From a bacterium (GTDB lineage Bacteria > Sysuimicrobiota > Sysuimicrobiia > Sysuimicrobiales > Segetimicrobiaceae), in the NCBI GenBank assembly GCA_035703895.1, contig DASSXJ010000008.1:1-36784 (forward strand): a stretch of DNA of 36,784 nucleotides, given 5' to 3'. Position numbers and translations under genes: made by a program. Shown here in pieces: positions 13,577 through 29,417 of the stretch. The notes below the pieces were generated by a model. That model made no database searches. It was not told the origin of the DNA and saw nothing but the letters and a program-made list of their open reading frames with translations. How positions within the stretch are numbered: position 1 is the first letter of the stretch; each line of letters opens with the position of its first letter.

Positions 13577-14149
13577 CTACGATCCCCCCTGCCCCGGGGG
13601 TGCGCCCGGTGGTGTCTCGCCGGCGCCCCCTTCGGTGGGACCCGGCCTACTCGGGCCGCCGGGGGCAGGCGCGCCTGCGGCAGCCGGGGTCGCTGGGGCG
13701 GCGGCGGCCTTACGCGCCGCCGGCGGTGGAGGGGCCGGCAACTTCGCGACCCGGTCGCTGAACTCGCGGACCGCGGCGACGAACTCCGCCTGTTCGTGCA
13801 GACCGTGAAAGATCGTGCCGACGCGATCGGGCTGGATCTTCTGACGCTCCAACCGCCGCCGCATCTGGACCACGCGGTCCGCGATGAGGTTGTTGCCGAG
13901 ACGGTTAAAACAATCGCCCAACGGACACCCGCACACGAACGCGCCGTCGGCGCCGTTTTTGAGCGCGAACTCGAGCCACGAGGGACGGATGAACCCGGAG
14001 CACGGCACTTTAATGAGGGTCACGCCGGGGAGATCGCGCATCGTCCCGTCCTCACGCACCAGCCCTTCGCTGCTGACGGCCCAATCGCACAGAAATCCGA
14101 CGATGCGGGGGCGGCGATCCGCGGCCGCGGACGGCTTCACGTCCGACAT
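13577..14149 (-). CDS. MvhD-like hydrogenase/heterodisulfide-reductase-associated iron-sulfur protein
   Basis: A 190-residue protein whose first 135 residues match the MvhD (FlpD) family: C21, then VPCSGFI (C50), GADGAFVCGCPLGDCFNRLGN (C73, C75, C80), followed by a helical stretch. In methanogens MvhD is a [2Fe-2S] adaptor that passes electrons between a hydrogenase or other donor and HdrA. Here the usual CxxC near the N-terminus is CDWA (second Cys missing), so the cluster may be altered. Residues 138-190 are a Pro/Ala/Gly-rich tail without predicted fold. The gene overlaps the 3' end of the cytochrome b-ferredoxin gene by 13 bases, so its partner is probably that protein. No HdrA or hydrogenase is in the window. 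Confidence 0.82.
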   Translation of the reverse strand: MSDVKPSAAADRRPRIVGFLCDWAVSSEGLVREDGTMRDLPGVTLIKVPCSGFIRPSWLEFALKNGADGAFVCGCPLGDCFNRLGNNLIADRVVQMRRRLERQKIQPDRVGTIFHGLHEQAEFVAAVREFSDRVAKLPAPPPPAARKAAAAPATPAAAGAPAPGGPSRPGPTEGGAGETPPGAPPGQGGS

Positions 14150-15294
14150 GCGTCCAGCACCTTCCCTTGGATGTCGCTTTCGAGAAACCGGGGGAGCTCC
14201 AGCGCCTCAAATGGGCACGCGCCGATGCAGATCCCGCATTCCACGCACCGGGACTCCAGCACGATCGCGAGCTCCTTCCTGGCCTGGGCGGCTCTGGTCA
14301 CCCCGGGGTGAGGGCTCGGGACCATCACAATGGCATCGTACGGACAGTCATAGTAGCAGAGCTCGCACCCCGTGCAATTCGCATCCACCACTTGGGCGAT
14401 CCCCGCGTCCCGGATGCCCATCTCCGCGGGTGTCTCGGGGAGCTGATAGGGAATGTAGAGGCCGTACACGACGAGCACGACGGCCAGGGCCACGAGCCAG
14501 GCCGGCGTGATGTACTTCAGAGCCACGTAGGGGAGCAGGAAGAACCAGTCGACGGCCAGCCTGTCCGGCGCGGCTCCGGTCGAGGCGAGGGGTTGGCTCG
14601 CCGCCGGGATCACGGCGGACAAGAGAAACACCGCCCCGAGCGAGAACAGCGTCCACACGGCGGGCGGCCAGACCTTGGGGTGGCGGACGCGGACGTAGTG
14701 CCACCACAGCAGCACGTAGAGCGCGGTGGCGGGGCCCACGTGGAGGAACAACATCCGCGGCAGCAGGAGGTTGGTCGTGCCCGCCCCGCCGAAGAGGGCG
14801 GACCGGAGCGCGCCGCCAACGATCGGGATCGCGGCGAGCGAGTTCCCCGTCATCGCGACCAGCAGTTGGGCGCGCTGGTCCCAGACGAGCATATACCCGT
14901 TCACCCCGATGAAGCCCGCGAACACCAGCAGCATCATGCCGCTGATCCAGGGCTCGTCCCTGCTGAACCGGAACCGTTCCGTGAACCAGTTCCGAAAGAA
15001 ATGCAGCAGGATGGCGACGATGAACCCGTCGGCGGCATACCGGTGAATCCCGCGAATGATCTGTCCGTACGGCACGCCGTCCAGGATGTAATCCACAGAC
15101 GTGTAGGCGTCGTTGAACGACGGGACGTAGTACAGGAAGAGAAAGATCCCGGACAACACGAGGACCGTCAGAAAGAGGTTGGACAGCCCGCCCGTGTAGT
15201 AGAGCGGATTGAAGTCCGCCGGATAGATCCGGTTGATCCAGACATCGAGGCTCAAGGTCCATCGGAGGAGCCCGTTGAGCAGGCGCTTATACAC
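14137..15294 (-). CDS. Dihaem cytochrome b fused to a 2x[4Fe-4S] ferredoxin domain
   Basis: 385 residues. The first part is a cytochrome b core with all four haem ligands: H84 and H98 in helix B, H185 and H199 in helix D (both 14 apart). A further helix ends in DWFFLLPY (249-256), a degenerate counterpart of the PEWY quinone-site motif, and one more helix follows. From residue 300 there is a cytoplasmic bacterial-type ferredoxin with two cluster motifs: C307, C310, C313, C317 and C350, C353, C356, C360. Haem b and two [4Fe-4S] clusters in one chain suggest electron transfer between quinone and a cytoplasmic acceptor. It is the second cytochrome b of this operon. The GTG start overlaps the upstream small gene by 8 bases. 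Confidence 0.88.
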   Translation of the reverse strand: MYKRLLNGLLRWTLSLDVWINRIYPADFNPLYYTGGLSNLFLTVLVLSGIFLFLYYVPSFNDAYTSVDYILDGVPYGQIIRGIHRYAADGFIVAILLHFFRNWFTERFRFSRDEPWISGMMLLVFAGFIGVNGYMLVWDQRAQLLVAMTGNSLAAIPIVGGALRSALFGGAGTTNLLLPRMLFLHVGPATALYVLLWWHYVRVRHPKVWPPAVWTLFSLGAVFLLSAVIPAASQPLASTGAAPDRLAVDWFFLLPYVALKYITPAWLVALAVVLVVYGLYIPYQLPETPAEMGIRDAGIAQVVDANCTGCELCYYDCPYDAIVMVPSPHPGVTRAAQARKELAIVLESRCVECGICIGACPFEALELPRFLESDIQGKVLDACRT

Positions 15295-15484: not shown

Positions 15485-15820
15485 CTACCCCCTCCCTCGT
15501 CCCGGTGAGACCGCCGCCGGCGGGCCGCCGCCTAGCGGCCCTCGCCGGAGCCCGGGGCGGGACCCGGCGACGCGCCGTGCCAGGATCCACTCGTAGAGCC
15601 TAATCGGCCGGCGAACCCGGCCGGCTGCGCGGTCGACCTCATAGAGGAGGAACCCCAGCCACAATCCGACGATGAGCAGGCCGCATCCGAGCACGGCCAC
15701 CTGGACGGCGTGTTGCATCCCAGGCGCCGTGCGCCACATCCTCCAGGCGGCGAGGAACTCGCTCAGGCCCGCGATCGCCGTCCCCAGGAGCACGTAGAAC
15801 AGCCCTTTGCGGAAGACCAT
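15485..15820 (-). CDS. 111-residue membrane protein of the cytochrome cluster
   Basis: The ATG lies one base past the stop of the Rieske-associated cytochrome b, with no separate ribosome-binding site, so translation is probably coupled. Two hydrophobic segments are visible (about residues 6-24 and 40-61), then LLYEVDRAAGRVRRPIRLYEWILARR and a Gly/Arg/Pro-rich tail from residue 88 on. I do not recognise a family. Position suggests an accessory subunit of the complex. Confidence 0.62.
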   Translation of the reverse strand: MVFRKGLFYVLLGTAIAGLSEFLAAWRMWRTAPGMQHAVQVAVLGCGLLIVGLWLGFLLYEVDRAAGRVRRPIRLYEWILARRVAGSRPGLRRGPLGGGPPAAVSPGRGRG

Positions 15821-15821
15821 G

Positions 15822-16982
15822 CTACGACGCCGCCGCCGTCGCCCTCGGAGCGGGGGGCGCGGGACGGGCCGGCGGGGTTTGCGCCTGGCGCGCCTTCCGC
15901 CGGCGGTGGACGAGCTCCCACATGAACGCCGCCACCATCACCACAGCGGTGACCGCCATGATGATCGGCGGATCACGGCTGATGACCGCGATGTTCAGCA
16001 TGATAAGCGCCGTGAACGCGATGAAATACACGAGGGCCAGCATCCCCACCGTGAAGAACAGCGGGCGTTCCAGGGGGCGCGTCTCCTTGGTCCGGTCGAG
16101 GAACGGCACCAGCATCCCGTACCCGATCAACAACGCCGGTGCGATCCCCGCCCACAGCGGCGGCATGTACTTCACCAGCTGGTACAGCGCGAGGAAGTAC
16201 CAGTCCGAGAGGATCGGCAGCGGCGTCCGGTTGGGGTTCGCCCAGCGGCCCATGTCCGTCAACCGCTCGAAGCTCAACCACCCCAGGAACGCCAGGACCA
16301 GGACGATCACAAATGGGGACAGGTTGAGCCGCCTCCGGCGCGTCCGGTAGAAAAACACCTCGGCGAGGATCACGAACACCACCGAGATGCCGAAGTGGAT
16401 CGCATAGAACCGGGTGATGGTGGCCTGCCCGACGGCCGGGCCCCCCAGGAAGATGTACGTGATCGCGTGTCCCAGCCCCGTGTTCCCGAGCAGGGGGATC
16501 TCGTCATAATAGGTCGGCACGGTGAGCACGGTCTTGGCCGCCCAGAACGCCCGCTGGTTCCAGATCAGGAGATAGCCGGTGATCCCCGAGATCATCCCCA
16601 GCACGAGGGATGCGAACAGGATCATCCAGGAGAGCTCTCCTGGCTTCTTGTACTCGCCGGCGAAGTACATGCGGTAGATGCGGAGGGTGATGCAGATGAT
16701 GAGCATGTCCGCCGCGTACTTGTGCATCCCCCGGACCAACCAGCCGAACGGGATGTCGTAGGTGATGTGCTCGATCGACCGGTACGCGCCCGTCGTCGTC
16801 GGGATGTACCACAGCATCAGGATGACGCCGGAGACGATCACCACCATCCACGAGAGCCACACCAGGCTGCCGATGATGTACAAGGGGTTGTCCTGCTTGG
16901 CGGTCTTGGTCTCATCGAAGAGATCCAGGTGCTGCTTGCGGTCCTGGAGCCATTCCTTGAGATTGGCGAGCATCGCGTCCAC
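15822..16982 (-). CDS. Rieske-associated cytochrome b lacking one bis-His haem pair
   Basis: 386 residues with about eight membrane helices, so it covers both the b6-like and subunit IV-like halves. The b6-type block GMHKYAADM...YRMYFAGEYKKPGELSW is clear. H87 (helix B) and H196 (helix D) are the ligands of the haem near the Qo site. The positions of the second pair are R101 (14 after H87) and F210/F211 (14-15 after H196), and neither helix has another histidine, so only one b-type haem can be bound in the usual way. The quinone-site motif is SDWY (259-262) in place of PEWY. It follows the Rieske gene directly. The GTG at 16982 has a G-run upstream; an ATG at 16973 with AGGTGG is an alternative start. 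The C-terminal tail is rich in Arg, Ala and Pro. Confidence 0.9.
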   Translation of the reverse strand: MDAMLANLKEWLQDRKQHLDLFDETKTAKQDNPLYIIGSLVWLSWMVVIVSGVILMLWYIPTTTGAYRSIEHITYDIPFGWLVRGMHKYAADMLIICITLRIYRMYFAGEYKKPGELSWMILFASLVLGMISGITGYLLIWNQRAFWAAKTVLTVPTYYDEIPLLGNTGLGHAITYIFLGGPAVGQATITRFYAIHFGISVVFVILAEVFFYRTRRRRLNLSPFVIVLVLAFLGWLSFERLTDMGRWANPNRTPLPILSDWYFLALYQLVKYMPPLWAGIAPALLIGYGMLVPFLDRTKETRPLERPLFFTVGMLALVYFIAFTALIMLNIAVISRDPPIIMAVTAVVMVAAFMWELVHRRRKARQAQTPPARPAPPAPRATAAAS

Positions 16983-17618
16983 CTAGGCGATCCCCCCCAG
17001 TTCGGCCCCGGTGACGACGATGTCTTCGCCGCGGATCTCGAATTCGAAGTAGCGGGCGCCCCGCGGGGCGGGACCGGAGATGACGTTCCCCGGGTCGTTC
17101 GGGAACGCCGGATCGTAGATGCTGAGGTGACACGGACACCCCATCAGCGCGTGCTTCTCAAACTCGGGAGGCACATACCCTCCGTACCCCGCCGTGATCT
17201 CGTGGAAGTCGGGGATGAAATTGAAGATGCACCCAAGGTGCGGACAGATCCGCTGGAACAGGGCGATGTCAGTCTCGCCCTTGTACCCGACGAACCCCGA
17301 CGCGTTCTCAAACTTCACCTTTTTAGGAAGGCGCACCGCCACCCCGGCGATGTTGGCGGCTTTGTACCCCGTCGGATCGTACTGGACGAATTTCTGGACG
17401 TACGTGAAGTAGAAGAAGTCCCACGGCTTTGCCAGCGCCGTCGTCTTCCCCACGACCTGGGCCCCGCCTTTGGGGAGGTCCGGTTTGATGGTGAAGATCT
17501 GCCAAGGGCCGTCGTTCGGCTTGAGGAACCGGAATAACGGCGACAGCACCGCCACGAGCCCCCCGAGCACCGGGATGGCCGTCAATACCTTCAAGAGCCT
17601 GCGCCTGCCTACCGTCAT
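16983..17618 (-). CDS. Rieske [2Fe-2S] protein of a cytochrome bc-type complex
   Basis: 211 residues. The N-terminus RRRLLKVLTAIPVLGGLVAVLSP is an uncleaved Tat-type signal anchor. The cluster motifs are CPHLGC (C125, H127, C130) and CPCHLS (C161, C163, H164): C125/H127 and C161/H164 bind the cluster, and C130-C163 form the stabilising disulfide. About 30 residues separate the two motifs, including a Tyr/Gly-rich stretch. It takes one electron from quinol at the cytochrome b Qo site and passes it to a cytochrome c. The stop abuts the start of the cytochrome b gene. Confidence 0.95.
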   Translation of the reverse strand: MTVGRRRLLKVLTAIPVLGGLVAVLSPLFRFLKPNDGPWQIFTIKPDLPKGGAQVVGKTTALAKPWDFFYFTYVQKFVQYDPTGYKAANIAGVAVRLPKKVKFENASGFVGYKGETDIALFQRICPHLGCIFNFIPDFHEITAGYGGYVPPEFEKHALMGCPCHLSIYDPAFPNDPGNVISGPAPRGARYFEFEIRGEDIVVTGAELGGIA

Positions 17619-17678: not shown

Positions 17679-18548
17679 TTACTTAATCGGCGGGTGCTTG
17701 TAGAAGAACGTGTAGATGTAATCCACCAAACCATTGAGTTGGTCCGCCGACAGCTTGCCCCGGTACGACGGCATCAGCCCATGCCCGTCCAGGATCGCAT
17801 TGGTCAGCTCACTCGGGTTGCGCTGGACGATGTAGTTGATATCCGTGAAGATCCCCGGCCCCTCGCCGCGCGACCACGACCACAGCTGGCCGGCCATCTC
17901 GGGACCTCGAGGGCCTTTCCCATCGCCGTTCGCCCCGTGGCACACCGCACACTGTTCATCGTAGAGATGCTTGGCGGCGCTGAGTTCCTCGGGCGACGTC
18001 CGGAACATCATCTCGTAGGCGTTGGCGTCCCAGCGCTGTTGGTTGGTGATCGTCGGATACTTGTTGGCGCCGAACGATGCTTCCGGCCCGAACGCCGGCA
18101 TCGCGGTGTGGGGACGGCCGAGGGTGACGGTCTCGTAGAGGATCGCCGGGGTGATCACGTTTTCCAGATCCCGGTTGTGGAAATTGACCGGCTTGCTCGG
18201 AAGCGGTTCCCGGTTCAGTTCGATATGAAACACGCCGAGGAGCGCGGTCAGGACATCCTTATCGGGGGCCTTCAATGTGGCCGCCATCGGGCCGTTCCCG
18301 TCACCGTTCATGCCGTGGCACACCGCGCAGTTGGCCTCGAAGACCTGCTTGCCCGTGATCGCGTCGGGGACGATGGGCTGTTCGTTCTCGTCGATGACGA
18401 GGGGGATCTCCACTTCCTGGGGAGGGGGCAGCGCCCGGTCCACCTTGGCCCGAGACACATCGACCGACGGCTGGCACGCGGTGAGGGCCAGCACCGCCAC
18501 GAGGGCTGGGACGGCGCTCGGCCAGGCTTCGGGGTTCCTCAACCACAT
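17679..18548 (-). CDS. Dihaem cytochrome c lipoprotein
   Basis: 289 residues. The signal peptide ends in the lipobox LTAC (C25), so the protein is lipid-anchored on the outside. Two cytochrome c domains each have the motif CAVCHG (C74/C77/H78 and C200/C203/H204); possible distal Met ligands are M150 (HTAMPAF) and M259 (GLMPSY). The second domain ends with an ALDY-like LSADQLNGLVDYIYTF helix. It should accept electrons from the Rieske cluster. The start at 18548 is set by GGGAGGA 9 bases upstream; the frame is open 59 codons further without a signal peptide. Maturation would use the ccm genes upstream. Confidence 0.92.
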   Translation of the reverse strand: MWLRNPEAWPSAVPALVAVLALTACQPSVDVSRAKVDRALPPPQEVEIPLVIDENEQPIVPDAITGKQVFEANCAVCHGMNGDGNGPMAATLKAPDKDVLTALLGVFHIELNREPLPSKPVNFHNRDLENVITPAILYETVTLGRPHTAMPAFGPEASFGANKYPTITNQQRWDANAYEMMFRTSPEELSAAKHLYDEQCAVCHGANGDGKGPRGPEMAGQLWSWSRGEGPGIFTDINYIVQRNPSELTNAILDGHGLMPSYRGKLSADQLNGLVDYIYTFFYKHPPIK

Positions 18549-18594
18549 GCCGGTCTGTCCTCCCTCTGCATCCGGCGCGCACCACACCCCCGCA

Positions 18595-18768
18595 TCAAAC
18601 CGCCGAGTCCGGGCTGCCCCGTGCACGCCGACGGCAGCCCGCGAAAAAGCAACGATCGGTGAAGGCTCCGCTTGTATCGGTTCGGAGACACCCCGAGGCG
18701 ATGACGCAGATCTGACACGGGCCATGCTTCTTCCACGAGATCGTTCCGGTCTCCTCCACCCACGGCAC
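18595..18768 (-). CDS. Doubtful 57-residue cysteine-rich reading frame
   Basis: The interval between the carboxypeptidase-regulatory-like gene and the cytochrome c gene (18549-18803) holds this frame. From a GTG at 18768 it reads 57 codons, with cysteines spaced CxxC-x6-C-x12-C-x3-C (outline: PCQIC, SGC, DRC, AGC) and a basic tail. The ribosome-binding site is weak and third-position GC is lower than in neighbours, so it may be chance. If real, the five cysteines suggest a metal or cluster site. Confidence 0.25.
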   Translation of the reverse strand: MPWVEETGTISWKKHGPCQICVIASGCLRTDTSGAFTDRCFFAGCRRRARGSPDSAV

Positions 18769-18803: not shown

Positions 18804-19904
18804 TTAGGTGGGGCCCCTCCGGAACCGTCTGAGCGCGATCGTCAATCCACCGGCGAGCACCACCCCGAGCCCCGCAGCCACCGCGCCCGGCCAGGGGTCC
18901 CGGGCGGACGGCATCCCGCGCAGGCGCACCACCACCTGTCCGCCGGCAGGGAGCGGGCCGCCGGTCAATCGCTGATACCGCCCCCTGGGTCCGGTCACCG
19001 TGCCTTGTGCGGTGAGACCATCCGCCTCGGCGCGAACGCCGACGTCGGCAACGAGCACCTCCACGTCCTTTGCCCCGTATGGGAGCGACCACGCGAGGCG
19101 GAGTGCGGATTCCCCGGCGCCGAGCTCGTACGAATAGGCCACCTGGGCGGTCCCTGGAGTGAGGGGAAAGACATCCGTGATGCGACCGGCGGCGATGTGT
19201 GGATCCCGCCATCCCGCGAGCGCGCTCACGGTTTCCGCACCCGACGGCAGCGGGAACACGAGCGGATCCCGAGGGCTCACCACCACGGTCCGATCGGTGG
19301 CGTTGGCCAACCCCTGCACCACGCTCACCCGCACCGCCCCCCTCGCTACGTCGAGCACGGCCAACGCGACCGTCCCGCGCACCGCTCCCCGGTCAGATGA
19401 CGGCTCGTACACTGGGAGATCTATATCGCGAACAGGGGCGTCGGCGGAGAGCACCACGCGATCGCTTGCGTATCGAACCCCGCGGTACTCGGTGCTGAGC
19501 ACGAACACGCGAATGCCCCCGAGGGGGAGACTTGGGAACTGAAACCGGCCCGCGGCATCCGAGCTCACCGCCTGATCGGACGATGCGCCCCGTTCGACGA
19601 TCGTGAGCCGGACGGGCTGATGGGCCACCGGGTGTTGTGGCGCAGTGCGATCGATGACCCGGCCCCGAATCTTGCCGTCGCCGGAGGCGCTGAGATCCGC
19701 GGGTCCCCCGAAGACACACGCAGCGACGGCGGCCCCGAAGATGGGCCACAGGACGCGCGTTAGCGTTCGCCCCCCGGCGTTCGTTCGATCGTGTCGCCGG
19801 GCCCAGCGCCCCCGGCCTGCTGCCGAGCCGTCGCGTCGCGCGCTCCGCCCCGTGCGCGCAGATGTATAGAATTGGTGGCGTTGCGAAGCGGAGCGAGCAC
19901 CCAC
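18804..19904 (-). CDS. Exported C-terminally anchored protein with a carboxypeptidase-regulatory-like domain; start unresolved
   Basis: From about residue 48 the product has an export-type sequence (TRVLWPIFGAAVAACVFGG), then a beta-rich domain GKIRGRVIDRTAPQHPVAHQPVRLTIV...SSDAAGRFQFPSLPLG typical of carboxypeptidase-regulatory-like folds, a second beta-rich region, and a C-terminal membrane helix (GAVAAGLGVVLAGGLTIAL) followed by RRFRR. The only in-frame ATG/GTG/TTG before the export sequence is GTG at 19904, which overlaps the upstream small gene by 145 bases and adds 47 Arg/Gly-rich residues that look non-coding. The true start may be a CTG at 19751 or a re-initiation at the CTAA junction (19763-19760). 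Its role near the cytochrome maturation genes is unknown. Confidence 0.68.
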   Translation of the reverse strand: MGARSASQRHQFYTSARTGRSARRDGSAAGRGRWARRHDRTNAGGRTLTRVLWPIFGAAVAACVFGGPADLSASGDGKIRGRVIDRTAPQHPVAHQPVRLTIVERGASSDQAVSSDAAGRFQFPSLPLGGIRVFVLSTEYRGVRYASDRVVLSADAPVRDIDLPVYEPSSDRGAVRGTVALAVLDVARGAVRVSVVQGLANATDRTVVVSPRDPLVFPLPSGAETVSALAGWRDPHIAAGRITDVFPLTPGTAQVAYSYELGAGESALRLAWSLPYGAKDVEVLVADVGVRAEADGLTAQGTVTGPRGRYQRLTGGPLPAGGQVVVRLRGMPSARDPWPGAVAAGLGVVLAGGLTIALRRFRRGPT

Positions 19905-19948
19905 GCCGCGACCGCCGCGGCGAAGATGACCATCACCACGGCCGTCAC
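19760..19948 (-). CDS. 62-residue membrane protein of the cytochrome maturation operon
   Basis: A GTG overlaps the ccmF stop by 4 bases (GTGA), with GAGGGG just upstream. One hydrophobic segment (residues 2-20, ending in VLAPLR) is followed by a polar Arg/Gly/Ala-rich tail. The design resembles the N-terminal anchor of CcmI/CcmH-type proteins, which follow ccmF in many genomes, but no TPR or thiol-reductase domain is present. It may be a remnant or a small partner of CcmF. Family not assigned. Confidence 0.58.
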   Translation of the reverse strand: MTAVVMVIFAAAVAAWVLAPLRNATNSIHLRARGGARDATARQQAGGAGPGDTIERTPGGER

Positions 19949-21933
19949 GGCCCCTCTGACGTCAAAGCGCCCGCGGGCGCACCCGCGAGCGCGGTGGCGG
20001 GACGACGCTCAGGGAGCATCGCGATCACCGCTCCGGCGGTCAGCACGAGGCCGCCGGCCCAGATCCACATCACGAGCGGGTTCACGAGCAGGCGTAGGGT
20101 CGCCTCCCCTTCCCGCGTCCACGCCGCTAGGATCACGTACAGATCATTCGCCGGCGTGCTCCGAAGAGCGACGTCCGTGGTAGCTTCCGAGCTCGTGAGG
20201 AAGAGATTCCGGCTGGCGTCGAGCGGCCCGAGATCCCGCGCCCCCGCGAACGCGTGGAGCCGGGCGGTCACCACCAGCGCACCGTTGCGCGTCGCCTCTG
20301 AGATCCCCTCGTACCTGATCCGATACCGAGCCACTTGGACGGAGTCGCCCGGCCGGAGGGTCGCCACGCGCTGAGTGCTGAACACCGAGGATCCGGTGAT
20401 CCCGGCAAAGACCAGCAGGATCCCGAGATGCACGACGTATCCGCCGTACCGCCTCCGATTCCCCATGACGAGCGCCCACAGCGCCGCCACGCCGCCGGTG
20501 TCCCCGTGGGTCCGGCGGAGCCGGATCCCTCGAATGAACTCGAGCGTGATGGTCGCGGCGACGAACCCGCACAGGGCGAATGCCAGCACCGCGCCGGGGG
20601 CCCGGACGCCGGCGGCGAGCAGCGCGAGCCCGAGGGACACGCCGGACGCGCCCGGGGCGAGGAAGTCGCGTCGAAGGTCCGACGCCGTCGCCCGCCGCCA
20701 CGCCAATAGCGGTCCTACGCCCATCAACAGCAAGAGGAGCAGCGCCAGTGGTGAGATGACGTGATCGAAGAAGGGCGGCCCCACGTTCACCCGCCGTCCC
20801 GTGAGGGCCTCAGAGACCACCGGGAACACTGTTCCCAGAAACACGGCGAACGCGGTGGTGAGAAAGACCACGTTGTTCAAGAGAAACGCGCTCTCCCGAG
20901 AGAGCACTGCGTCCAGGTGGTTCCGGCTGCGGAGCGCTTCCCACCTCCACGCCAGCAGGGCGAACGCCGCGACCATGGCGAGCGCGAGGAACCCGAGGAA
21001 ATACGCGCCCAGCGGCGATTGGGTAAACGAGTGGATGCTGCTGAGCACGCCGCTGCGTGTTAGGAACGTGCCGAAGATCGACAGCCCGAACGCAAGCACG
21101 ACCAGGAGCGCGGTCCACTGGCCGAGCATCGCCCGGCGTTCCTGGATCATCACCGAGTGGAGAAACGCGGTGGCCACCAGCCACGGCATCAGCGCCGCGT
21201 TCTCCACGGGATCCCAGGCCCAATACCCCCCCCATCCCAACACGACGTAGGACCACTTCGCTCCGAACATCAGACCCATGCTCAGGCAGTACCATGCCCA
21301 CAGCATCCAGCGGCGCGCCAGGAGCACTCCCGCCTCCTCGATCGCTCCGTCCGCCAGCGCCGCGACCACGATCGCAAAGGGCACGGTCAGGCCGACGAAC
21401 CCGAGGTACAGCGTGGGCGGATGGATCGCCATCCATGGGTTGAGCAGCAGGGGGTTCATCCCCCGTCCATCCGCGGGCGGGAACGGCACCGTAACGAACG
21501 GCGAGGCCACCGCGACCAGCATGAAGAGGAAAAATGCCGAGACGGCAGCGCATACCCCGACCACCCCGGGGAGGAGCCGCGGTCGGTCCCGCCCGACGCT
21601 CCGGATGATCGCCAACGAGTACCCCGAGAGGATCAGCGCCCACAGCAACAGCGACCCTTCCATGCCGCCCCAGAACGAGGTGAGATCATACACCACGGCC
21701 TGGGCGTTGCTGACGTGGCTCGTCACGTACGCAAACGAATAGTCGCGCGCAAGGAGCGCGCCCGCCAGCACGACACCGGCGAGGGCCTCGAGCGCCGCGA
21801 CCATCCAGACGGCTCGGACCGCACTCGTCACGAGCTCCGGCCGCCGGGATCGCGCCCCCAACCAGGCGGCCGCGAGAGCGTAGACGGCAAGAACGAGGGC
21901 GGAGGCGAGACCAAACCTGCCGAGATCAGCCAC
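19945..21933 (-). CDS. ccmF: Cytochrome c haem lyase subunit CcmF
   Basis: 662 residues with about 14-15 membrane helices. The tryptophan-rich WWD haem-handling domain GWGGYWAWDPVENAALMPW is at residues 233-251, preceded by the conserved HPPTLYLGFVG (171-181) with a candidate haem-ligand His. The C-terminal CcmF_C part has an external beta-rich loop (about 520-620) and a last helix. It joins haem delivered by CcmE to the CxxCH thiols of apocytochrome c on the outer face of the membrane. The GTG start is preceded by AGAGGT within the end of ccmE. Transcribed after ccmABCDE. Confidence 0.96.
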   Translation of the reverse strand: MADLGRFGLASALVLAVYALAAAWLGARSRRPELVTSAVRAVWMVAALEALAGVVLAGALLARDYSFAYVTSHVSNAQAVVYDLTSFWGGMEGSLLLWALILSGYSLAIIRSVGRDRPRLLPGVVGVCAAVSAFFLFMLVAVASPFVTVPFPPADGRGMNPLLLNPWMAIHPPTLYLGFVGLTVPFAIVVAALADGAIEEAGVLLARRWMLWAWYCLSMGLMFGAKWSYVVLGWGGYWAWDPVENAALMPWLVATAFLHSVMIQERRAMLGQWTALLVVLAFGLSIFGTFLTRSGVLSSIHSFTQSPLGAYFLGFLALAMVAAFALLAWRWEALRSRNHLDAVLSRESAFLLNNVVFLTTAFAVFLGTVFPVVSEALTGRRVNVGPPFFDHVISPLALLLLLLMGVGPLLAWRRATASDLRRDFLAPGASGVSLGLALLAAGVRAPGAVLAFALCGFVAATITLEFIRGIRLRRTHGDTGGVAALWALVMGNRRRYGGYVVHLGILLVFAGITGSSVFSTQRVATLRPGDSVQVARYRIRYEGISEATRNGALVVTARLHAFAGARDLGPLDASRNLFLTSSEATTDVALRSTPANDLYVILAAWTREGEATLRLLVNPLVMWIWAGGLVLTAGAVIAMLPERRPATALAGAPAGALTSEGP

Positions 21934-21938
21934 GCCGA

Positions 21939-22352
21939 TTACCTCTGGCTCTGTGGATCAGCCGGGGAATACTTCGTCGGACATTTCGCCAGGAGCGTTG
22001 TGGCGGTAAAGGATCCATCGGAGAGGAGCGCGCCCTCGACCACGACCTGGCGGCCCGCGCTGAAGATGTCAGGAATGACCCCGCTGTAGTGAACCGGAAT
22101 GGCATCCGTCCCGTCGGTGACGCTGAAGCGGAGGTGCTGGTGCGAGGGGTCCCATGCGATCGACCCCGGGACCACCGTGCCGCCAAGGCGCACCCGCGCC
22201 TGCGCGGCGGCCCCCGTCCTCCCCCGCAGCTCTCCCACGGTCACCCAGTAGGTGGCCCCCTGCTGGATCCCCCCGTAGACGAGGTAGGCGAGCGCGAAGA
22301 CGAACACGGCGACCCCCGCGACAAAGACCACGGGCCTGCGCCGGAATGTCAT
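21939..22352 (-). CDS. ccmE: Cytochrome c maturation haem chaperone CcmE, CxxxY variant
   Basis: 137 residues: an N-terminal membrane anchor (residues 7-27), then an OB-fold periplasmic domain with VTVGEL, VRLGGTVVPGS, HYSGVIPDIFSAGRQVVVEG and the C-terminal haem-binding motif. In most CcmE proteins that motif is HxxxY; here it is C124-P-T-K-Y128. CxxxY is the hallmark of the variant System I found in archaea and some bacteria such as sulfate reducers, where haem is bound through Cys. That variant is also reported to lack CcmH, and none is seen here. The ATG at 22352 overlaps ccmD by 4 bases. Confidence 0.95.
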   Translation of the reverse strand: MTFRRRPVVFVAGVAVFVFALAYLVYGGIQQGATYWVTVGELRGRTGAAAQARVRLGGTVVPGSIAWDPSHQHLRFSVTDGTDAIPVHYSGVIPDIFSAGRQVVVEGALLSDGSFTATTLLAKCPTKYSPADPQSQR

Positions 22353-22528
22353 GGACGCCCCGCGCGAGAATGGCCCGAGGCCGACGGAGACGGCGGCGCG
22401 GTCTTCTGTAACCTCTCGCGCAGCGTGTGCACTTCGCGGGCCAGCGCTTGGCTCCTTCGACCCAGGGCGTAGAGGTACAGAAAGATGCCGATCCACACCG
22501 CGGCAAAGGCCCAAAACAAGTAGGTCAT
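22349..22528 (-). CDS. ccmD: Haem exporter protein CcmD
   Basis: A 59-residue protein between ccmC and ccmE, overlapping both by 4 bases (ATGA). One membrane helix (TYLFWAFAAVWIGIFLYLYAL, in outline residues 2-22) is followed by a basic, amphipathic segment GRRSQALAREVHTLRERLQ and a Pro/Ser-rich tail. This topology and position are those of CcmD, which holds CcmC and CcmE together and helps release haem-loaded CcmE. Confidence 0.85.
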   Translation of the reverse strand: MTYLFWAFAAVWIGIFLYLYALGRRSQALAREVHTLRERLQKTAPPSPSASGHSRAGRP

Positions 22529-23202
22529 GGAGGGACTTCGCCGGCGGCCAGCGCCGCGACCTCAGCCTCCAACAGCCCGATCGCAAGGCGCGCGCGAAAC
22601 AGAGTCCAGTAGAACAAGCTCCACGCGACGAGCCCAGCAGCAAGCGCCCACACCATCGAGGGCGCCAGGCCGATGCTGCGCGATGTGAAGATCACCGGGG
22701 ACAAGGCGCGGAGATACCGGGCCGAGAGCCATACCAGCGGCACATCGACAAACCCCACGATCGCGAACACGGCGGCGAAGCGGGCGCGCCGCACGTCCTC
22801 TCCGGCGGCGCCCCGCAGCACCAGATACCCCACGTAGACGAGCCACAAGATCAGGTAAGTCACCAGCTGGGGATCCCACGTCCACCACGTGCCCCACACG
22901 GGACGCGCCCACAGCGAACCGGTCACGATCACCAGGGTGCTGAACAGGACTCCGATCTCCGCGGCCGCCGCCCCCACCTCGTCCCACTCGCGCCGGGCGG
23001 TCCTGAGATACTGGATCCCAGCCCAACACGCGTGCCCGAACGCGACGAACCCGATCCACGCCAGGGGAAGGTGGACGTAAAAAATGCGCTGGATGTCCCC
23101 CATGACCGCCTCGGGTTGGGCGAACACAAATGCGCCGTAGAGGGCGATGAGCATCGTGCCACCCGTGATCGACGCGAGCGCGGTGTCGCGGGACCGGATC
23201 AC
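22525..23202 (-). CDS. ccmC: Haem exporter / CcmE haem-loading protein CcmC
   Basis: 225 residues, six membrane helices. The WWD domain reads RPVWGTWWTWDPQL at about residues 99-112, flanked by conserved His residues (YVHLPLAWIGF at about 42-52; the second expected His falls in the region about residue 180). CcmC loads haem onto CcmE at the outer membrane face. A GTG start directly follows the ccmB stop. Confidence 0.95.
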   Translation of the reverse strand: MIRSRDTALASITGGTMLIALYGAFVFAQPEAVMGDIQRIFYVHLPLAWIGFVAFGHACWAGIQYLRTARREWDEVGAAAAEIGVLFSTLVIVTGSLWARPVWGTWWTWDPQLVTYLILWLVYVGYLVLRGAAGEDVRRARFAAVFAIVGFVDVPLVWLSARYLRALSPVIFTSRSIGLAPSMVWALAAGLVAWSLFYWTLFRARLAIGLLEAEVAALAAGEVPP

Positions 23203-23871
23203 TTACTCCTCCACCACGTAGGCAAACAGCCACATGCCGAGCATCCCAAAAATGATATCAACCGCCCCCAGCAGTTTCAACGAACGTAAGAGTTCGGTAA
23301 GTCCACGATCGTCGAGCACTGCCCCGATCCCGGCGAGCGAGAGCATGATCACCGGGAGCGCGACTGGCAGCAGCAAGATCGGGAGCAGCACTTCCCGCAG
23401 CCGGGTCGCCGACGTCATCGCCCCAAGCAGCGTTCCGATCGCCGTGAACCCGACCGCGCCGAGCACCAGCGGGAGGGAGAGCCACATGAGGTGCCGACCG
23501 ACGTCGGCGGTGAACAAGACGGCGGTCGCCACGACCACAACGATCTGAAGAATGAGCACCACGACCAGGTTCGCCCCGCATTTGCCGAGGTAGAGGAGGC
23601 TCCGACTGACCGGGGTCATCAACAGCCCTTGGAGGGCCTGCCCCTCCTGTTCGATGGCGTGCGCGCGCGCCAGCCCCAGCGTCGCCGCAAACGACACCGT
23701 CACCCACACCACGGCGGGGGCGGCGGCCGTCCCGAGACGGGAAGACGGGCCCAGGGCAAGGTTCTGGATCACGAGCGCCAGAAACGCGACGAGGCCCATC
23801 GACGTGACCAGTTCTCTGGTGCGGGCTTCGATCACCAGGTCTTTCCAGATCAGAGCGCCGAGGGTCCTCAC
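23203..23871 (-). CDS. ccmB: Haem exporter membrane subunit CcmB
   Basis: 222 residues with six membrane helices. The start TLGALIWKDLVIEARTRE is the typical cytoplasmic segment of CcmB (KDLxxExR). EQEGQALQGLLMTPVSRSLLYLGK matches the next conserved loop. With CcmA it forms the ABC complex that uses ATP to release haem-CcmE from CcmC. The GTG overlaps the ccmA stop by 4 bases. Confidence 0.94.
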   Translation of the reverse strand: MRTLGALIWKDLVIEARTRELVTSMGLVAFLALVIQNLALGPSSRLGTAAAPAVVWVTVSFAATLGLARAHAIEQEGQALQGLLMTPVSRSLLYLGKCGANLVVVLILQIVVVVATAVLFTADVGRHLMWLSLPLVLGAVGFTAIGTLLGAMTSATRLREVLLPILLLPVALPVIMLSLAGIGAVLDDRGLTELLRSLKLLGAVDIIFGMLGMWLFAYVVEE

Positions 23872-24587
23872 CGATGATCCCCGGCGATCGCCTCACCGTA
23901 CCACGCGCGCAACGCCTCCGGATCCATCCCCGCAAGCGCGCTCGGGGCGGTGAGGCGGCCCCCCGCGAGGACGGCAGCATCGTCGGCGACGCGGAGCGCT
24001 TCGGCCGCGCTGTGGGTGGTCATGACCGTCGCCCCCCCATCCCGGCAAAACTCCCGGAGCGTCCGGCTGAGGTCCTCGGCACCCCCGGGGTCCAGGCCGG
24101 TGAAGGGCTCGTCGAGCAGCAGGACCGCCGGACGATGCAGGAGCGCGCGGGCGAGGGCGGCCCGTTGCTGGCTCCCTCGGGATAAGCTACGAACGAGGGC
24201 TGCCGGCTGGTCGATCCCCATCAGGTCGCAGACGCCGGCGGCCCGTTCGTATCCATCAGGTAGGTTGTACAAGATGGCAAGAAGGCGCAGGTTCTCGCCC
24301 ACGCTGAGCCCGCCGTACAGCATCGGTTCGTGGCCAACGAATCCGATCCGGCGCCGGACGGAGGGATCTGTGAATGGATCATCTCCGTGGATCCGGACCC
24401 GCCCCCGGCGCGGACGCAACGCCGCCCCGAGCACGCGGAGAAGGGTCGATTTCCCTGAGCCGTTGGGACCGAGAATCGCGAGGCACCGTCCAGCGGGCAC
24501 CTTGAGGGTCACGCTGCGGAGCACCGGCGCGCGCCCGTAACTCCGCCAAAGGTCTTCGGCGTACACCGCGTCCCGGTCGCCGGCCAC
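23868..24587 (-). CDS. ccmA: ABC transporter ATP-binding protein CcmA
   Basis: 239 residues. Walker A GPNGSGKST (about 38-46), Q-loop replaced by GFVGHEPMLYGGLSV (typical of CcmA), signature LSRGSQQRAALARAL, Walker B VLLLDEPFTGLD, and switch His in TTHS. The GTG at 24587 overlaps the stop of the bshC-like gene by a few bases; no strong ribosome-binding site, so translation is probably coupled. First gene of ccmABCDEF. Confidence 0.93.
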   Translation of the reverse strand: MAGDRDAVYAEDLWRSYGRAPVLRSVTLKVPAGRCLAILGPNGSGKSTLLRVLGAALRPRRGRVRIHGDDPFTDPSVRRRIGFVGHEPMLYGGLSVGENLRLLAILYNLPDGYERAAGVCDLMGIDQPAALVRSLSRGSQQRAALARALLHRPAVLLLDEPFTGLDPGGAEDLSRTLREFCRDGGATVMTTHSAAEALRVADDAAVLAGGRLTAPSALAGMDPEALRAWYGEAIAGDHR

Positions 24588-24588
24588 C

Positions 24589-26154
24589 TCAGGCCGGTGC
24601 GGTCGAAGCGGCGGCCAACGCGCTGAGGCGGGCGGGGTCGAACAAGAAGAATGGATACCCCCGATAGGTCGCCGCCACTTCCGCCGAGGATCGGCCGAGG
24701 GTCGCCTGCTTCGTCTGCAGCCGGTGGATCTCGTCCGCAAGGCCCTGCGCAAGCTGCGCGTTGATCTCGCGGATCTGGTGCGTGGCCGCCCGGCGCTCGG
24801 CCCCCGGGCGCATCTGCTCGACCGCCCGGATCAGCGACCATTTCTGGTCGATCAGCCGGCGCTGGGCTTCCGACGGGGAGGCGAGCGACCGCTCGGGATT
24901 GTGCTGCAGATCCATCAACCGGCGTTCGAGCGCCCGTCCGTCCTCGACGGCGCCGCCGGTGCCCGCGAGCGGCAGCATGAGGGTCGCGGTCGCAACGACG
25001 TAGGGTGGTGGCGCGCACCCGAACACCTCGCCGATCACCGCATTGGTCGCGCGGTCGTAGCGGGCTCCGCCAACGCCGTGGATGAACAGATCCGCGAGAC
25101 ACAGCCGGGCGAACATCGTGAACGTGAGCGCTTTGGGCCGGATGCGTACGCCGGACGCGCGCAGCGCCTCCACCCCCGCCCGGCCCGCCGGCAGGTCCAG
25201 TAATGTGTCGGCCGGCGTCCGCAGCTGCAGCCGATCGCTATCCCGGTGGACAAAGAGACTGACCCGCCTCCCCCCGCGCACGATCCAAAACGGCGCCTCT
25301 TCGTACCCGTCCGCCGACTCGAGGTTCGGGAACGGGTTGGCGGCCGACCGCAGGCGATGGAGGCGACGGTACTCGTCTAGGCTCGCGTTATACCGCCTTC
25401 GGAATCCAGAGGGATCCTGCAACAGATGCAGGGCAAAGGCGGCAAACTCCGGGGTCTCGGAGAGGGCGGAGACGGCCACCTCTGCGTAGCCGGGGGGGGC
25501 CGCGGTGGCCTCATACATCCGCCGCGCGCCGGCGAGGAACTGGCCGAGGGTGCCGGCATGCGTCCGCGCCCGCGCGGCCCCCGCGACGAAGGTCTCGAAG
25601 CACGCGCGCATCTCGCCCGCCGCGACGGTGCCGAGGTGGCGGCGCACCCGGCCGCAAAACGTTTGCCACTGTCCCTCCGTTGGGGCGGGCGCCGCCTCGA
25701 GCGACACGTCGCCCGGCAGATCGAGGAGCGTCTCGGTGTGCCGCGTGAGCTGGTCTCCTTGGGAGGGGATCTCCGCGGTGATCGGCCCGGGGGCGTCGTT
25801 GTCGACGAGCAGGTAGAGCCCGCTCATGTCCAAATGTTGGCATAGGCGAGTGAGGAGAAAAAACTTGAACCAGACGCCGGGGTGGAAGAACACCGGCTGG
25901 TGTCCCATGACGACGAGCCGAGCGGCGGACGACAGCGCATCCGGCGGGACCCCCGCGATCGACAACGCGCGCGCCCGCACCTGTTCGCGGAACTCCCCGA
26001 GCGGGGTTCCGAGAATCTCGGCGCCCCCCCAGCCCCCGCGCAGCGCCTGGTCCAGAATCGCCGGCAGGCGTTCCACCGGCGGATCGATGAGCACCTCGCC
26101 CGAGCGCTCCGGCACCTTGTACGCGGTCGGGGCCGGCGACGCCCGCTGGATCAC
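24589..26154 (-). CDS. BshC-like protein (putative cysteine-adding enzyme of bacillithiol-type thiol synthesis)
   Basis: 521 residues, close to BshC length. The N-terminal Rossmann part has VVMGHQPVFFHPGVWFKFFLL where BshC has VVTGQQPGLFTGPLYTIYK, and VDNDAP where BshC has the EDHDF region. At about residues 345-390, LFIHGVGGARYDRATNAVIGEVFG fits the BshC block with GGPGEIAYW...F. A coiled-coil C-terminal segment (about 430-500) is also as in BshC. The match is distant, so the exact substrate is open. The gene overlaps bshB1 by 4 bases, which strongly supports a shared pathway. No bshA is visible in the window. Confidence 0.68.
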   Translation of the reverse strand: MIQRASPAPTAYKVPERSGEVLIDPPVERLPAILDQALRGGWGGAEILGTPLGEFREQVRARALSIAGVPPDALSSAARLVVMGHQPVFFHPGVWFKFFLLTRLCQHLDMSGLYLLVDNDAPGPITAEIPSQGDQLTRHTETLLDLPGDVSLEAAPAPTEGQWQTFCGRVRRHLGTVAAGEMRACFETFVAGAARARTHAGTLGQFLAGARRMYEATAAPPGYAEVAVSALSETPEFAAFALHLLQDPSGFRRRYNASLDEYRRLHRLRSAANPFPNLESADGYEEAPFWIVRGGRRVSLFVHRDSDRLQLRTPADTLLDLPAGRAGVEALRASGVRIRPKALTFTMFARLCLADLFIHGVGGARYDRATNAVIGEVFGCAPPPYVVATATLMLPLAGTGGAVEDGRALERRLMDLQHNPERSLASPSEAQRRLIDQKWSLIRAVEQMRPGAERRAATHQIREINAQLAQGLADEIHRLQTKQATLGRSSAEVAATYRGYPFFLFDPARLSALAAASTAPA

Positions 26155-26834
26155 AGCAGATCCTCGAGACTGCGGAGGCCGAGCGCTTCCTTGCTGGCGA
26201 ACGGTTCCCCGTACGGCCGGCGGATGCGTGTGCCCCAGTACCCGGCCACGGTGCGGATCGCGTCGAGGACGGCGGCGTTGCCGCGCTCCTCGTTAAACTG
26301 TGAGCGGTAGCAGGCGATGGCGTCCATCTTCTGTTGAATCTGGTCGGAGATGTCGAGGACAAACGCGGGGGCGACGTGGAGCCGGTAGTGCGTACAGAAA
26401 AAGTGCAGGATCCGCCGTGGGTAGTGGGGATCGCCCCGCATCTCGGTCTTCGTGAGCTTCGCGTAGAACCGGGCCGCTTCGCCGAGGTGTTCCGCGGCGA
26501 TGTGGTCGGGGTGCGCGTCCACACCGTAAGGGAGGAACACGATCTCGGGGCGCACCTCGCGGATGACCTCCGCGACGGCGACGCGGTTCTCCACGGTATC
26601 CATGAGATACCGGTTCGGCAACGGAAGAGTGATCCGGCGCTCCACACCCAGCGTCTGCGCCGCGGCCTCGCTCTCGGTCCGCCGAATATCCGGCGAGCCC
26701 ATCGGGGTTGGCTCGCCGTCGGTGAGATCGAGGATGGTGACGCGATGCCCCCGCTGCACGAACGCCCCGATCGCACCACCCATTCCAATCTCGACATCAT
26801 CGGGATGCGCGCCGATCACGAGGAATTCCGCCAT
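26151..26834 (-). CDS. bshB1: BshB1-type N-acetylglucosaminyl-malate deacetylase (PIG-L/LmbE family)
   Basis: 227 residues of the zinc-dependent LmbE family. Metal motif AHPDD at residues 9-13, followed by EIGMGG; the third ligand is in DAHPDHIAAEH. The later part FFCTHYRLHVAPAFVLDIS and KMDAIACYRSQF matches the BshB1 subgroup rather than mycothiol or GPI enzymes. It would remove acetate from GlcNAc-malate, the second step of bacillithiol synthesis. The ATG at 26834 has GGGAGGTGA 5-6 bases upstream and overlaps the glycosyltransferase gene by 19 bases. Confidence 0.88.
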   Translation of the reverse strand: MAEFLVIGAHPDDVEIGMGGAIGAFVQRGHRVTILDLTDGEPTPMGSPDIRRTESEAAAQTLGVERRITLPLPNRYLMDTVENRVAVAEVIREVRPEIVFLPYGVDAHPDHIAAEHLGEAARFYAKLTKTEMRGDPHYPRRILHFFCTHYRLHVAPAFVLDISDQIQQKMDAIACYRSQFNEERGNAAVLDAIRTVAGYWGTRIRRPYGEPFASKEALGLRSLEDLL

Positions 26835-27526
26835 CGGCTCACCTCCCGGTCGATGATGGACAAGTAATAGGTCCGGCGCGTCGCCGGATCGTCCAGGCCG
26901 CCCCAGAATCGGCGGTCGGGGTTCTTGTAGATGCGCGGAACTGGGATCTCCTTCACCGTCAGCCCGAGCCGGGCCGCCTGCAGCCACACCTGCAGGGGGA
27001 GGCCGTAGGACCGTTCGTCGAGTTGCATCCGCGCGAGGCCCGCGACGCGGTACGCCTTGAACCCGCACCACGCATCGGTCAGATGATACCCGGTGAGGTC
27101 GTTGACGATCCGGGTCACCTCGGCATTGAGTTGCTGCCGATCGGGGGGCGCCGGGTCCTGCACGAACGACGCATCAGGATGGTAGCGGCTCCCCGAGACG
27201 ATGTCAACGGCCCGGGCCGCCTCCACAAACTCGGGGATCAGCCGGGGCTCGTGCTGCAGGTCGCAGTCGATCGTCACCGCGACATCGTACCCCGCCCGCA
27301 CCGCGTACCCGAATCCATCGATCAATGACTGGCCGTACCCCTCGTTCTGCGCGTGGGTCATCACCAGGACACCGGGCCGGCTCCGCTCGAGGATGCGGGC
27401 GGACCCATCGGTGGATCCGTCGTTCACGACGAGGATCTCCGCGGTCGTGCGACGCCGGACCTCTCCCAGCACCTCCGCGAGGGTCTCCTCCTCATTGAAC
27501 AACGGCATGATGACGATCGAACGCAT
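26816..27526 (-). CDS. GT2 family glycosyltransferase (dolichyl-phosphate-mannose-synthase-like)
   Basis: 236 residues, a soluble GT-A fold. IVIMPLFNEEETL at the start, VVNDGSTDGS (nucleotide site), TIDCDLQHEP (metal-binding D-x-D type), and GSRYHP are typical of polyprenol-phosphate sugar synthases. There is no C-terminal membrane domain. The donor and acceptor are not evident. It is not a GT4 enzyme, so it is not BshA, though it sits before bshB1. The ATG at 27526 is preferred to a TTG two codons upstream; neither has a clear ribosome-binding site. Confidence 0.85.
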   Translation of the reverse strand: MRSIVIMPLFNEEETLAEVLGEVRRRTTAEILVVNDGSTDGSARILERSRPGVLVMTHAQNEGYGQSLIDGFGYAVRAGYDVAVTIDCDLQHEPRLIPEFVEAARAVDIVSGSRYHPDASFVQDPAPPDRQQLNAEVTRIVNDLTGYHLTDAWCGFKAYRVAGLARMQLDERSYGLPLQVWLQAARLGLTVKEIPVPRIYKNPDRRFWGGLDDPATRRTYYLSIIDREVSRWRNSS

Positions 27527-27613
27527 TACCAAGACAACGCCGGTGCCCCCGGCGGTATGCCCCGCCAGAGGCTTACCGGAGGGCCTCGGATCGAAGGGAC
27601 CCCTGGGGGCGCC

Positions 27614-28597
27614 TCACCCGTGCCGGAGGCGCTCCGCGGCCGCGCGCGCGAAATACGTGAGGATGAGATCAGCTCCGGCGCGGCGGATCGCGAAGAGCAC
27701 CTCCATCATCGCCGCCTGCTCGTCGATCCAGCCGCGAGCGGCAGCGGCCCGCAGCATCGCGTATTCCCCGCTGACGTTGTAGGCCGCCGTCGGCAGGCCG
27801 AACGTCGTCTTCACCCGTGCGAGGACGTCGAGGTAGAGGAGTGCCGGCTTTACCATGACGATGTCGGCGCCCTCTTCGATATCCGCCCGTACCTCGCGGA
27901 GCGCTTCGTCGACGTTGCCGGGATCCACCTGGTAGCCGCGGCGATCGCCAGACTGGGGTCGAGATTCCGCCGCCTGCCGGAACGGCCCGTAGAACGCCGA
28001 CGCGTACTTGACCGCGTACGCCATGATGGCGACGTTCTGATGCCCGTGCTCGTCGAGGGCCCGCCGGACCGCGCCCACCTGGCCGTCCATCATCCCCGAC
28101 GGTGCAACAAAATCCACCCCCGCGTCGGCGTACGAGACCGCAATGCGCGCGTAGGCCTCAAGCGTGGTGTCGTTGTCGACCGCCCCACCCTTGAGGAGAC
28201 CGCAGTGTCCGTGATCGGTGTACTCGCACAGACAGAGGTCCCCCATCAGGACGAGCCGATCCCCGAACTCGGCCCGCACTGCCCGCATCGCCTGCTGGAC
28301 GATCCCATCCGGGTCCCACGCGGCGGTGCCCTCGGCATCCTTGCGCGCGGGGATCCCAAACAAAAGGACCGCCGGCACGCCGAGCTCGGCGTGCACGCCG
28401 CAGGTCTCGACGAGGCTCGACACCGTGTGCTGGTGTTGCCCCGGCATCGCCTCGATGTCCACCGGCCGCGACACACCCTCCTTCACGAAGAGGGGGGCAA
28501 TGAGGTGGTGTGGCGCAAGCGTGGTCTCGCGGACCATGGCGCGGATCGGCTCGGTCCGCCGAAGCCGGCGCGGACGGCTATACGGGAAGGATGTCAT
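27614..28597 (-). CDS. hemB: Porphobilinogen synthase (delta-aminolevulinate dehydratase)
   Basis: 327 residues, the enzyme that condenses two 5-aminolevulinate to porphobilinogen. The catalytic zinc site DLCLCEYTDHGHC has its three cysteines, so this is a zinc-type enzyme. The two active lysines lie in AYAVKYASAFYGPFR and VMVKPALLYLDV. The RPRRLRR and LIAPLFVKEG segments of the N-terminus are standard. TAGGAG precedes the ATG at 7 bases. It follows hemD by 10 bases. Confidence 0.97.
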   Translation of the reverse strand: MTSFPYSRPRRLRRTEPIRAMVRETTLAPHHLIAPLFVKEGVSRPVDIEAMPGQHQHTVSSLVETCGVHAELGVPAVLLFGIPARKDAEGTAAWDPDGIVQQAMRAVRAEFGDRLVLMGDLCLCEYTDHGHCGLLKGGAVDNDTTLEAYARIAVSYADAGVDFVAPSGMMDGQVGAVRRALDEHGHQNVAIMAYAVKYASAFYGPFRQAAESRPQSGDRRGYQVDPGNVDEALREVRADIEEGADIVMVKPALLYLDVLARVKTTFGLPTAAYNVSGEYAMLRAAAARGWIDEQAAMMEVLFAIRRAGADLILTYFARAAAERLRHG

Positions 28598-28607
28598 GTC
28601 TCTACTC

Positions 28608-29417
28608 CTATCGGTCGACGGCGGTGACCGCGCGGCCCAACCGCCCGCGCAGGGCGTCCACCAACCCCGGAATCGTGTAGACCTCTGCGATGAGACCCAC
28701 GGACAAACCGCACTCCTGCGCGGCGGCCGCGGTGACCGGCCCGATGCAGGCGATGATCGCATCCCCAAGCACGCGCGATCCCTCTGCGCCGGCGAGTTCG
28801 ACGAAGTGTCGGACCGTCGAAGGGCTGGTGAACGTCACGGCGTCGATGGTCCCGTGGAGCAACCGCGTCCGCGCCCCGGGGTCCTGCGCGCGCTCCAACT
28901 CGACCCGGTAGACGGGGACGACATCAACCACGGCGCCGAGCGCCCTCAATCCGTCAGGCAGCACCGCGCGCGCGGCGGCCGCGCGCGGCAGCAATATCCG
29001 GGCCCCGCGCACCTCCTGCGCGCGCTCGCCAAATGCCTCGAGCAACGCCTCGGCGACGAACCTGGCCGGCGCCACCGACGGTCGGAGCCCATGCGCGAGC
29101 AGGGCCTGTGCTGTGGCAGGCCCGATCGAGGCGATGCGGAGCCGGCCGAGCAGCGACGCGTCTCCGCCGCGTATCCTGAGGCGATCGGCGAATTGCGTGA
29201 CCGCGTTTTGGCTCGTGAACACCGCCCACTGATACCCGGCAAGCCGGTCGATCGCCCGATCGACGGGGCCGTAGTCGTCCGGGGGCACGATCCGGATCGC
29301 GGGGACCTCGATGACCTCGGCGCCGTCCGCCTCGAGCAGCGCGCTGAGGCGGTGCGCCTGCGCGCGGGCGCGAGTCACGACGATCCGGCGCCCGGACAGC
29401 AGGCCGTTCCCGGTCAC
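28608..29417 (-). CDS. hemD: Uroporphyrinogen-III synthase
   Basis: 269 residues. The two-lobed HemD fold is visible: GRRIVVTRARAQAHRLSALLEADGAEVIEVPAIRI at the start, YQWAVFTSQNAV, IASIGPATAQAL, then the second lobe with ARILLPRAAAAR, VYRVELER and FTSPSTVRHFVELAG, IACIGPVTAAAA. It closes hydroxymethylbilane into uroporphyrinogen III. The GTG at 29417 overlaps the hemC stop by 4 bases. The family is weakly conserved, but synteny makes the call firm. Confidence 0.93.
   Translation of the reverse strand: MTGNGLLSGRRIVVTRARAQAHRLSALLEADGAEVIEVPAIRIVPPDDYGPVDRAIDRLAGYQWAVFTSQNAVTQFADRLRIRGGDASLLGRLRIASIGPATAQALLAHGLRPSVAPARFVAEALLEAFGERAQEVRGARILLPRAAAARAVLPDGLRALGAVVDVVPVYRVELERAQDPGARTRLLHGTIDAVTFTSPSTVRHFVELAGAEGSRVLGDAIIACIGPVTAAAAQECGLSVGLIAEVYTIPGLVDALRGRLGRAVTAVDR

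Follow-up and report, generated by a model that had tools for sequence, protein, structure and literature searches.

The window analysed herein is a stretch of 36,784 nucleotides (contig DASSXJ010000008.1 of assembly GCA_035703895.1) from a member of the bacterial phylum Sysuimicrobiota, which is the same as CSP1-3 (naming: PMC11604079). Its minus strand carries an operon that begins with a diheme c-type cytochrome (17679-18725; 348 residues, two CxxCH motifs) and a Rieske protein (16983-17618; 211 residues). These are followed by a cytochrome b, termed A (15822-16982; 386 residues), and a small protein with two apparent transmembrane stretches (15485-15820; 111 residues). Two genes downstream of A lies another cytochrome b, termed B (14137-15294; 385 residues), and the last gene encodes an iron-sulphur electron-transfer subunit of the FlpD/MvhD type (13577-14149; 190 residues), whose start overlaps the end of B. 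The Rieske protein has a Tat-like anchor (RRRLLK), and its cluster boxes, CPHLGC and CPCH, are intact. It has an insertion of about 25 residues between these boxes and gives no Pfam Rieske match; hence, automatic annotation may overlook it.

The gene of A comprises 386 codons, and its GTG start (16980-16982) lies directly 3' of the Rieske stop codon. A is a full-length cytochrome b that has kept the ligand pair of haem bL and lacks both ligands of haem bH. The bL pair is formed by H87 (CAC, 16722-16724) and H196 (CAC, 16395-16397). In place of the helix-B ligand of haem bH stands R101 (CGC, 16680-16682), and in place of the helix-D ligand stand F210 and F211 (16350-16355). Helices B and D contain no histidine other than H87 and H196, and conserved Cys or Met residues are also absent near the site. 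These readings, taken from the codons on the minus strand, bear out what a first-pass annotation had noticed, namely, that the two lost ligands belong to one and the same haem. It had also described A as complete and as retaining its quinone-site motif and its Rieske partner, which holds as well. Both halves of the protein are matched in Pfam (Cytochrome_B PF00033, 4.7e-34; Cytochrom_B_C PF00032, 4e-07), and the Qo motif S259-D-W-Y262 is encoded at 16197-16208. Among solved structures, the top HMMER match is cytochrome b6 (8.8e-35). The predicted structure, a model of moderate quality (pLDDT 62), is matched by Foldseek along its entire length to a bc1 cytochrome b, with a TM score of 0.53.

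Since CAC and CGC are only one transition apart, a local sequence error at R101 had to be excluded, for which a single genome is insufficient. Across 43 Sysuimicrobiota genomes, full or partial orthologues of A are found in 39, the exceptions being four genomes of one genus (g9). H87, R101, and H196 are constant in 30/30 orthologues from seven families, with F, Y, W, or L at position 210, and SDWY is likewise present in all 30. Close homologues with four histidines are therefore missing among the orthologues read, and the shared H-to-R and H-to-F changes that the first-pass annotation had proposed to look for are a property of the family, with F being one of several residues at the latter position.

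Ligand spacing was counted in raw sequences with both helices complete, that is, in 23 A proteins, 32 canonical cytochromes b from other phyla, and 41 B-type proteins. A second histidine in helices B and D occurs in none of the 23 A proteins; there is accordingly no replacement histidine for a second haem in these helices. Both are present in all 41 B-type proteins, and the canonical proteins have histidines at +14 (helix B) and +15 (helix D) in 32/32 cases. At column 101, Arg in 23/23 A proteins stands against His in all 73 others. Helix C shows a matching change: Gly at column 122 is kept in 73/73 other cytochromes b and is replaced by L, A, F, or S in 20/23 A proteins (L122 in the window, 16617-16619); in the tree and in this helix-C count, a small number of canonical sequences were automatically labelled as B-class, by which A is unaffected. 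This glycine presumably provides the space for haem bH.

Sequence error as the cause of R101 and F210 is ruled out by the recurrence of the pattern in 23 to 30 orthologues. Decay of A is ruled out by dN/dS values of 0.06-0.18 (close pairs) together with the invariant Rieske boxes and Qo motif. The Rieske protein of the operon is itself intact and under selection, its CxHxGC and CPCH boxes being complete wherever the gene is present. As far as sequences can tell, A is a genuine and selected mono-haem (bL-only) cytochrome b, and the loss is coherent, as had been claimed, rather than a product of chance or error. Judged in the same way, A falls short of the four histidines needed for two haems b in one subunit, having two in 23/23 cases. 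The A proteins form one clade in the tree (ultrafast bootstrap 91); hence, the bH ligands were probably lost in a single event.

A is not restricted to Sysuimicrobiota. A wider sample of 386 genomes, mostly one per family, contains a clear orthologue (43% identity) in a genome, G151, of a second phylum represented by four genomes, and the gene order of the operon is the same there. Divergent orthologues (29% identity) occur in two further genomes of that phylum, G386 and G387. R101, both bL histidines, and D260-W261-Y262 are constant in all 15 aligned A sequences, the second phylum included. In a profile search of 385 genomes, most of them from this sample, A proteins score at least 450 bits and all others at most 215, and the non-A cytochromes b inspected from this search are canonical. 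The loci of G386 and G387 (L112, 1-6700; L111, 1-5200) contain cbb3-like oxidase subunits, a diheme cytochrome c, A, B with its [4Fe-4S] domain, and FlpD. Their A proteins show the ligand patterns H..R and H..W with DWY retained. Neither Pfam nor a profile of the operon's own Rieske protein detects a Rieske gene in either genome.

The first-pass annotation had treated A alone and overlooked its partner. B has kept all four ligands (H84, H98, H185, H199) and carries a C-terminal 2x[4Fe-4S] ferredoxin domain, in which both Cys sets are invariant. Its Qo motif, VDWF in the window, is degenerate; VDWF, LDVF, LDLF, LDFL, and VAWF are found, with Asp alone nearly constant, and the cd1 stretch of A (FWAAK) is not retained. 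The single-chain structure prediction of B is poor (pLDDT 48). The order diheme cytochrome c, Rieske, A, small protein, B, and FlpD is followed in the 20 loci that were read, within the limits of their contigs; the small protein varies so strongly that a match is not obtained in each of them, and a similar small ORF is seen in L088. A and B either co-occur or are both missing, contig-edge cases aside. In two genomes with A and no full B (G040, G041), A lies at a contig end.

Together with FlpD, the iron-sulphur domain of B corresponds to the C-terminal part of HdrA2 (NF040770). A body of the HdrA flavoprotein is found in none of the genomes G000, G002, G026, G014, and G151, and, being absent from the genome of the window, HdrA is ruled out as the partner of FlpD. 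In the g9 genus that lacks the A/B operon (G016, G029, G035, G037), the two genomes tested (G016, G029) instead have several proteins of the HdrA type and, separate from them, FlpD-like ones. Relatives of B in other families and phyla (L114-L127) are one-chain fusions of cytochrome b and two [4Fe-4S] motifs, most of them including FlpD in the chain, with A and the Rieske protein absent. Several of these fusions adjoin coxA, coxB, or SCO-like oxidase genes.

Taken side by side, the two cytochromes b are complementary: A has a Qo site and a Rieske partner without haem bH, and B has haem bH and iron-sulphur clusters without a good Qo site. In the bc1 dimer, the two bL haems are near enough to each other for electron transfer. 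An engineered bc1 in which bH is knocked out in one half and the Qo site in the other still turns over, the electron having to pass from bL to bL and on to bH (PMC4330944). This turnover and the matching pattern of A and B are the grounds on which an A:B pair is proposed. With slightly better than even confidence, A is the mono-haem half of an asymmetric A:B pair, from which its electron crosses to B and leaves by the iron-sulphur/FlpD route or by a quinone site of B. Quinol oxidation would take place in the Qo site of A, with one electron passing via the Rieske cluster and the diheme cytochrome c to an oxidase and the other to the bL haem of this subunit. With no haem bH available in A, the latter electron would have to cross from bL of A to bL of B and on to bH of B. 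From there, it might exit on the cytoplasmic side through the two [4Fe-4S] clusters of B to FlpD or, alternatively, reduce quinone at a Qi site on the side of B. Putative elements of this scheme are the heterodimer, the bL-bL transfer, the direction in which electrons flow, and their final acceptor; a cytoplasmic location of the iron-sulphur path is suggested by the helix count.

The earlier statement that a normal Q-cycle cannot run through this subunit is right for A but incomplete, the partner having been left out. A di-haem B with a ferredoxin domain accompanies every intact copy, so that a Q-cycle-like or bifurcating path can be drawn through the A:B pair and might be used. A more specific version, in which bifurcation drives an obligatory bL-bL transfer toward a low-potential cytoplasmic acceptor and many members of the phylum have the pair as their sole complex III, is a tentative reading. 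The A-B-FlpD set without a detectable Rieske protein in G386 and G387 stands against the scheme, as Rieske-dependent bifurcation is not universal in the family.

The distribution of cytochromes b bears on the role as complex III. In eleven genomes, each at least 93% complete (G026, G023, G032, G014, G019, G022, G025, G031, G028, G018, G030), no cytochrome b matches other than A and B occur, yet heme-copper oxidases are present in the three of them that were tested (G026, G014, G022). Therefore, the A:B pair is probably the only complex III of these genomes. The genome of the window has an additional canonical complex on another contig (C177) with a COX1 gene close by. An MqnA-type domain of the futalosine route to menaquinone was not found in G000. 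Complete aerobic respiration has been reported for CSP1-3/Sysuimicrobiota, in a paper that mentions neither Rieske nor complex III nor bc1 in its main text (PMC11604079).

Other readings assign different tasks to the same genes. Electrons might flow inward, from a cytoplasmic low-potential donor via FlpD, the [4Fe-4S] clusters, bH, and bL of B to A, to the quinone pool, or directly to the periplasmic cytochrome c and oxidase, with A being mainly an electron port on the P side. Room for this direction is given by G386 and G387, which retain A, B, FlpD, and the diheme cytochrome c without a Rieske protein, and by the stand-alone fusions of B and FlpD next to cox and SCO-like genes, from which it also follows that B can work without A. 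The resemblance of the B domain and FlpD to the C-terminal part of HdrA2 points the same way, this part being the electron-entry end of HdrA2. However, the Rieske protein and the DWY motif, which are typical of quinol oxidation, are invariant in Sysuimicrobiota, and a reversed Qo site costs energy without a proton-motive force, which makes the input direction rather unlikely. An A:A homodimer containing bL only, which would hand both quinol electrons successively to the Rieske protein without a Q-cycle, would make B and FlpD an independent ferredoxin:quinone module whose only link to A is the common operon. B does have relatives without A, and a bc1 complex that lacks bH or is blocked by antimycin still passes electrons linearly (discussed in PMC10715153). 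Against this, the bL ligands of A are invariant although they would serve no purpose at a dead end, A is never separated from B within Sysuimicrobiota, and a linear enzyme would waste energy and be expected to produce superoxide; such a division of labour is doubtful.

Two further explanations concern A itself. The haem could still be bound through R101, E208, Cys, or Met, or sit in a new place. R101 is indeed invariant, and so is E208 within Sysuimicrobiota, but E208 is not retained in G386 and G387, conserved Cys, Met, and His are absent near the site, and the helix-C glycine has given way to Leu, Ala, Phe, or Ser in most A proteins; a second haem in A is very improbable. A could also be a decaying subunit that is retained for structural reasons. 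The same ligands are lost in the deranged bc1 of the acidophilic Acetobacteraceae (PMC10715153), yet here the whole phylum has kept the Rieske boxes, the Qo motif, and the bL ligands intact, R101 is invariant in two phyla, and the dN/dS values are low, which leaves this explanation scarcely credible.

The proposed asymmetric A:B pair can be compared with several known systems. Canonical bc1, b6f, and menaquinol bcc complexes have in common with the operon the fold, both Pfam halves, the bL ligands, the Qo motif, a Rieske protein, and a c-type cytochrome. In contrast to them, A is devoid of bH ligands, and the operon adds a paralogous di-haem cytochrome b, iron-sulphur clusters, and FlpD. The Rieske/cytochrome b complexes with NAD(P) oxidoreductase of Kuenenia stuttgartiensis (PMC12954380) resemble it in their proposed quinol bifurcation and cytoplasmic iron-sulphur exit. 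A candidate for such a path is given by the 2x[4Fe-4S] domain of B and FlpD, which would lie on the cytoplasmic side judging by the helix count. The Kuenenia complexes are, however, modelled as homodimers with both haems b, c_N, and an FAD/NAD(P) subunit (PMC12954380), whereas the operon has two different b subunits and no gene for an NAD(P) oxidoreductase subunit among its genes. HdrA2 and Mvh share the succession of 2x[4Fe-4S] and FlpD (MvhD) with the operon (C-terminal part of NF040770), which, unlike them, lacks the HdrA flavin body and has the iron-sulphur module attached to a membrane cytochrome b.

The first-pass annotation had known of no complex with such a loss. The sole published precedent found for the loss of both bH ligands is the deranged bc1 of Acidiphilium and Acidocella, in which the Rieske protein is missing or without ligands, the reason for calling it deranged, and whose function is doubted (PMC10715153); the A operon differs from it in that the Rieske ligands are intact and the Qo site is conserved, as is the second cytochrome b that accompanies A. 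In open-licence papers, no natural Rieske/cytochrome b complex of a mono-haem and a di-haem cytochrome b was found described. A close likeness is the engineered Rhodobacter bc1 whose two halves carry H212N and G158W, respectively (PMC4330944), and which also joins a Qo half without a working bH to a bH half with a disabled Qo site. That system is a laboratory fusion of near-identical halves, whereas A and B are natural, divergent genes with an iron-sulphur exit, whose pairing we infer. Whether electrons pass from one bc1 half to the other during normal turnover has been disputed for years, and most tests have relied on engineered asymmetric dimers. Should A and B indeed pair, they would be a naturally evolved dimer of this kind, retained throughout a phylum, and bL-bL transfer in it would be obligatory rather than optional. 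The pair would then also be a second architecture, besides that of anammox, for bringing quinol electrons to the cytoplasmic side.

The surroundings of the operon and the length of A show some variation. In one family (f4), the gene immediately after FlpD encodes a divergent homologue of COX1 (L070, L071; G014:C9:52085-53323 and G022:C2:313456-314694), which suggests that the oxidase is part of the same unit there. In the window, the stretch from 18804 to 31000, upstream of and in the same direction as the operon, contains genes for cytochrome c maturation (CcmE is identified, and CcmF, C, B, and A are assigned by reading) and the haem synthesis genes ALAD, porphobilinogen deaminase, and HemD. 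The A protein of G038 (L033) contains 12 inserted residues, which lie between helices A and B, and those of L046-L048 and L051 are perhaps alike, as judged by their length.
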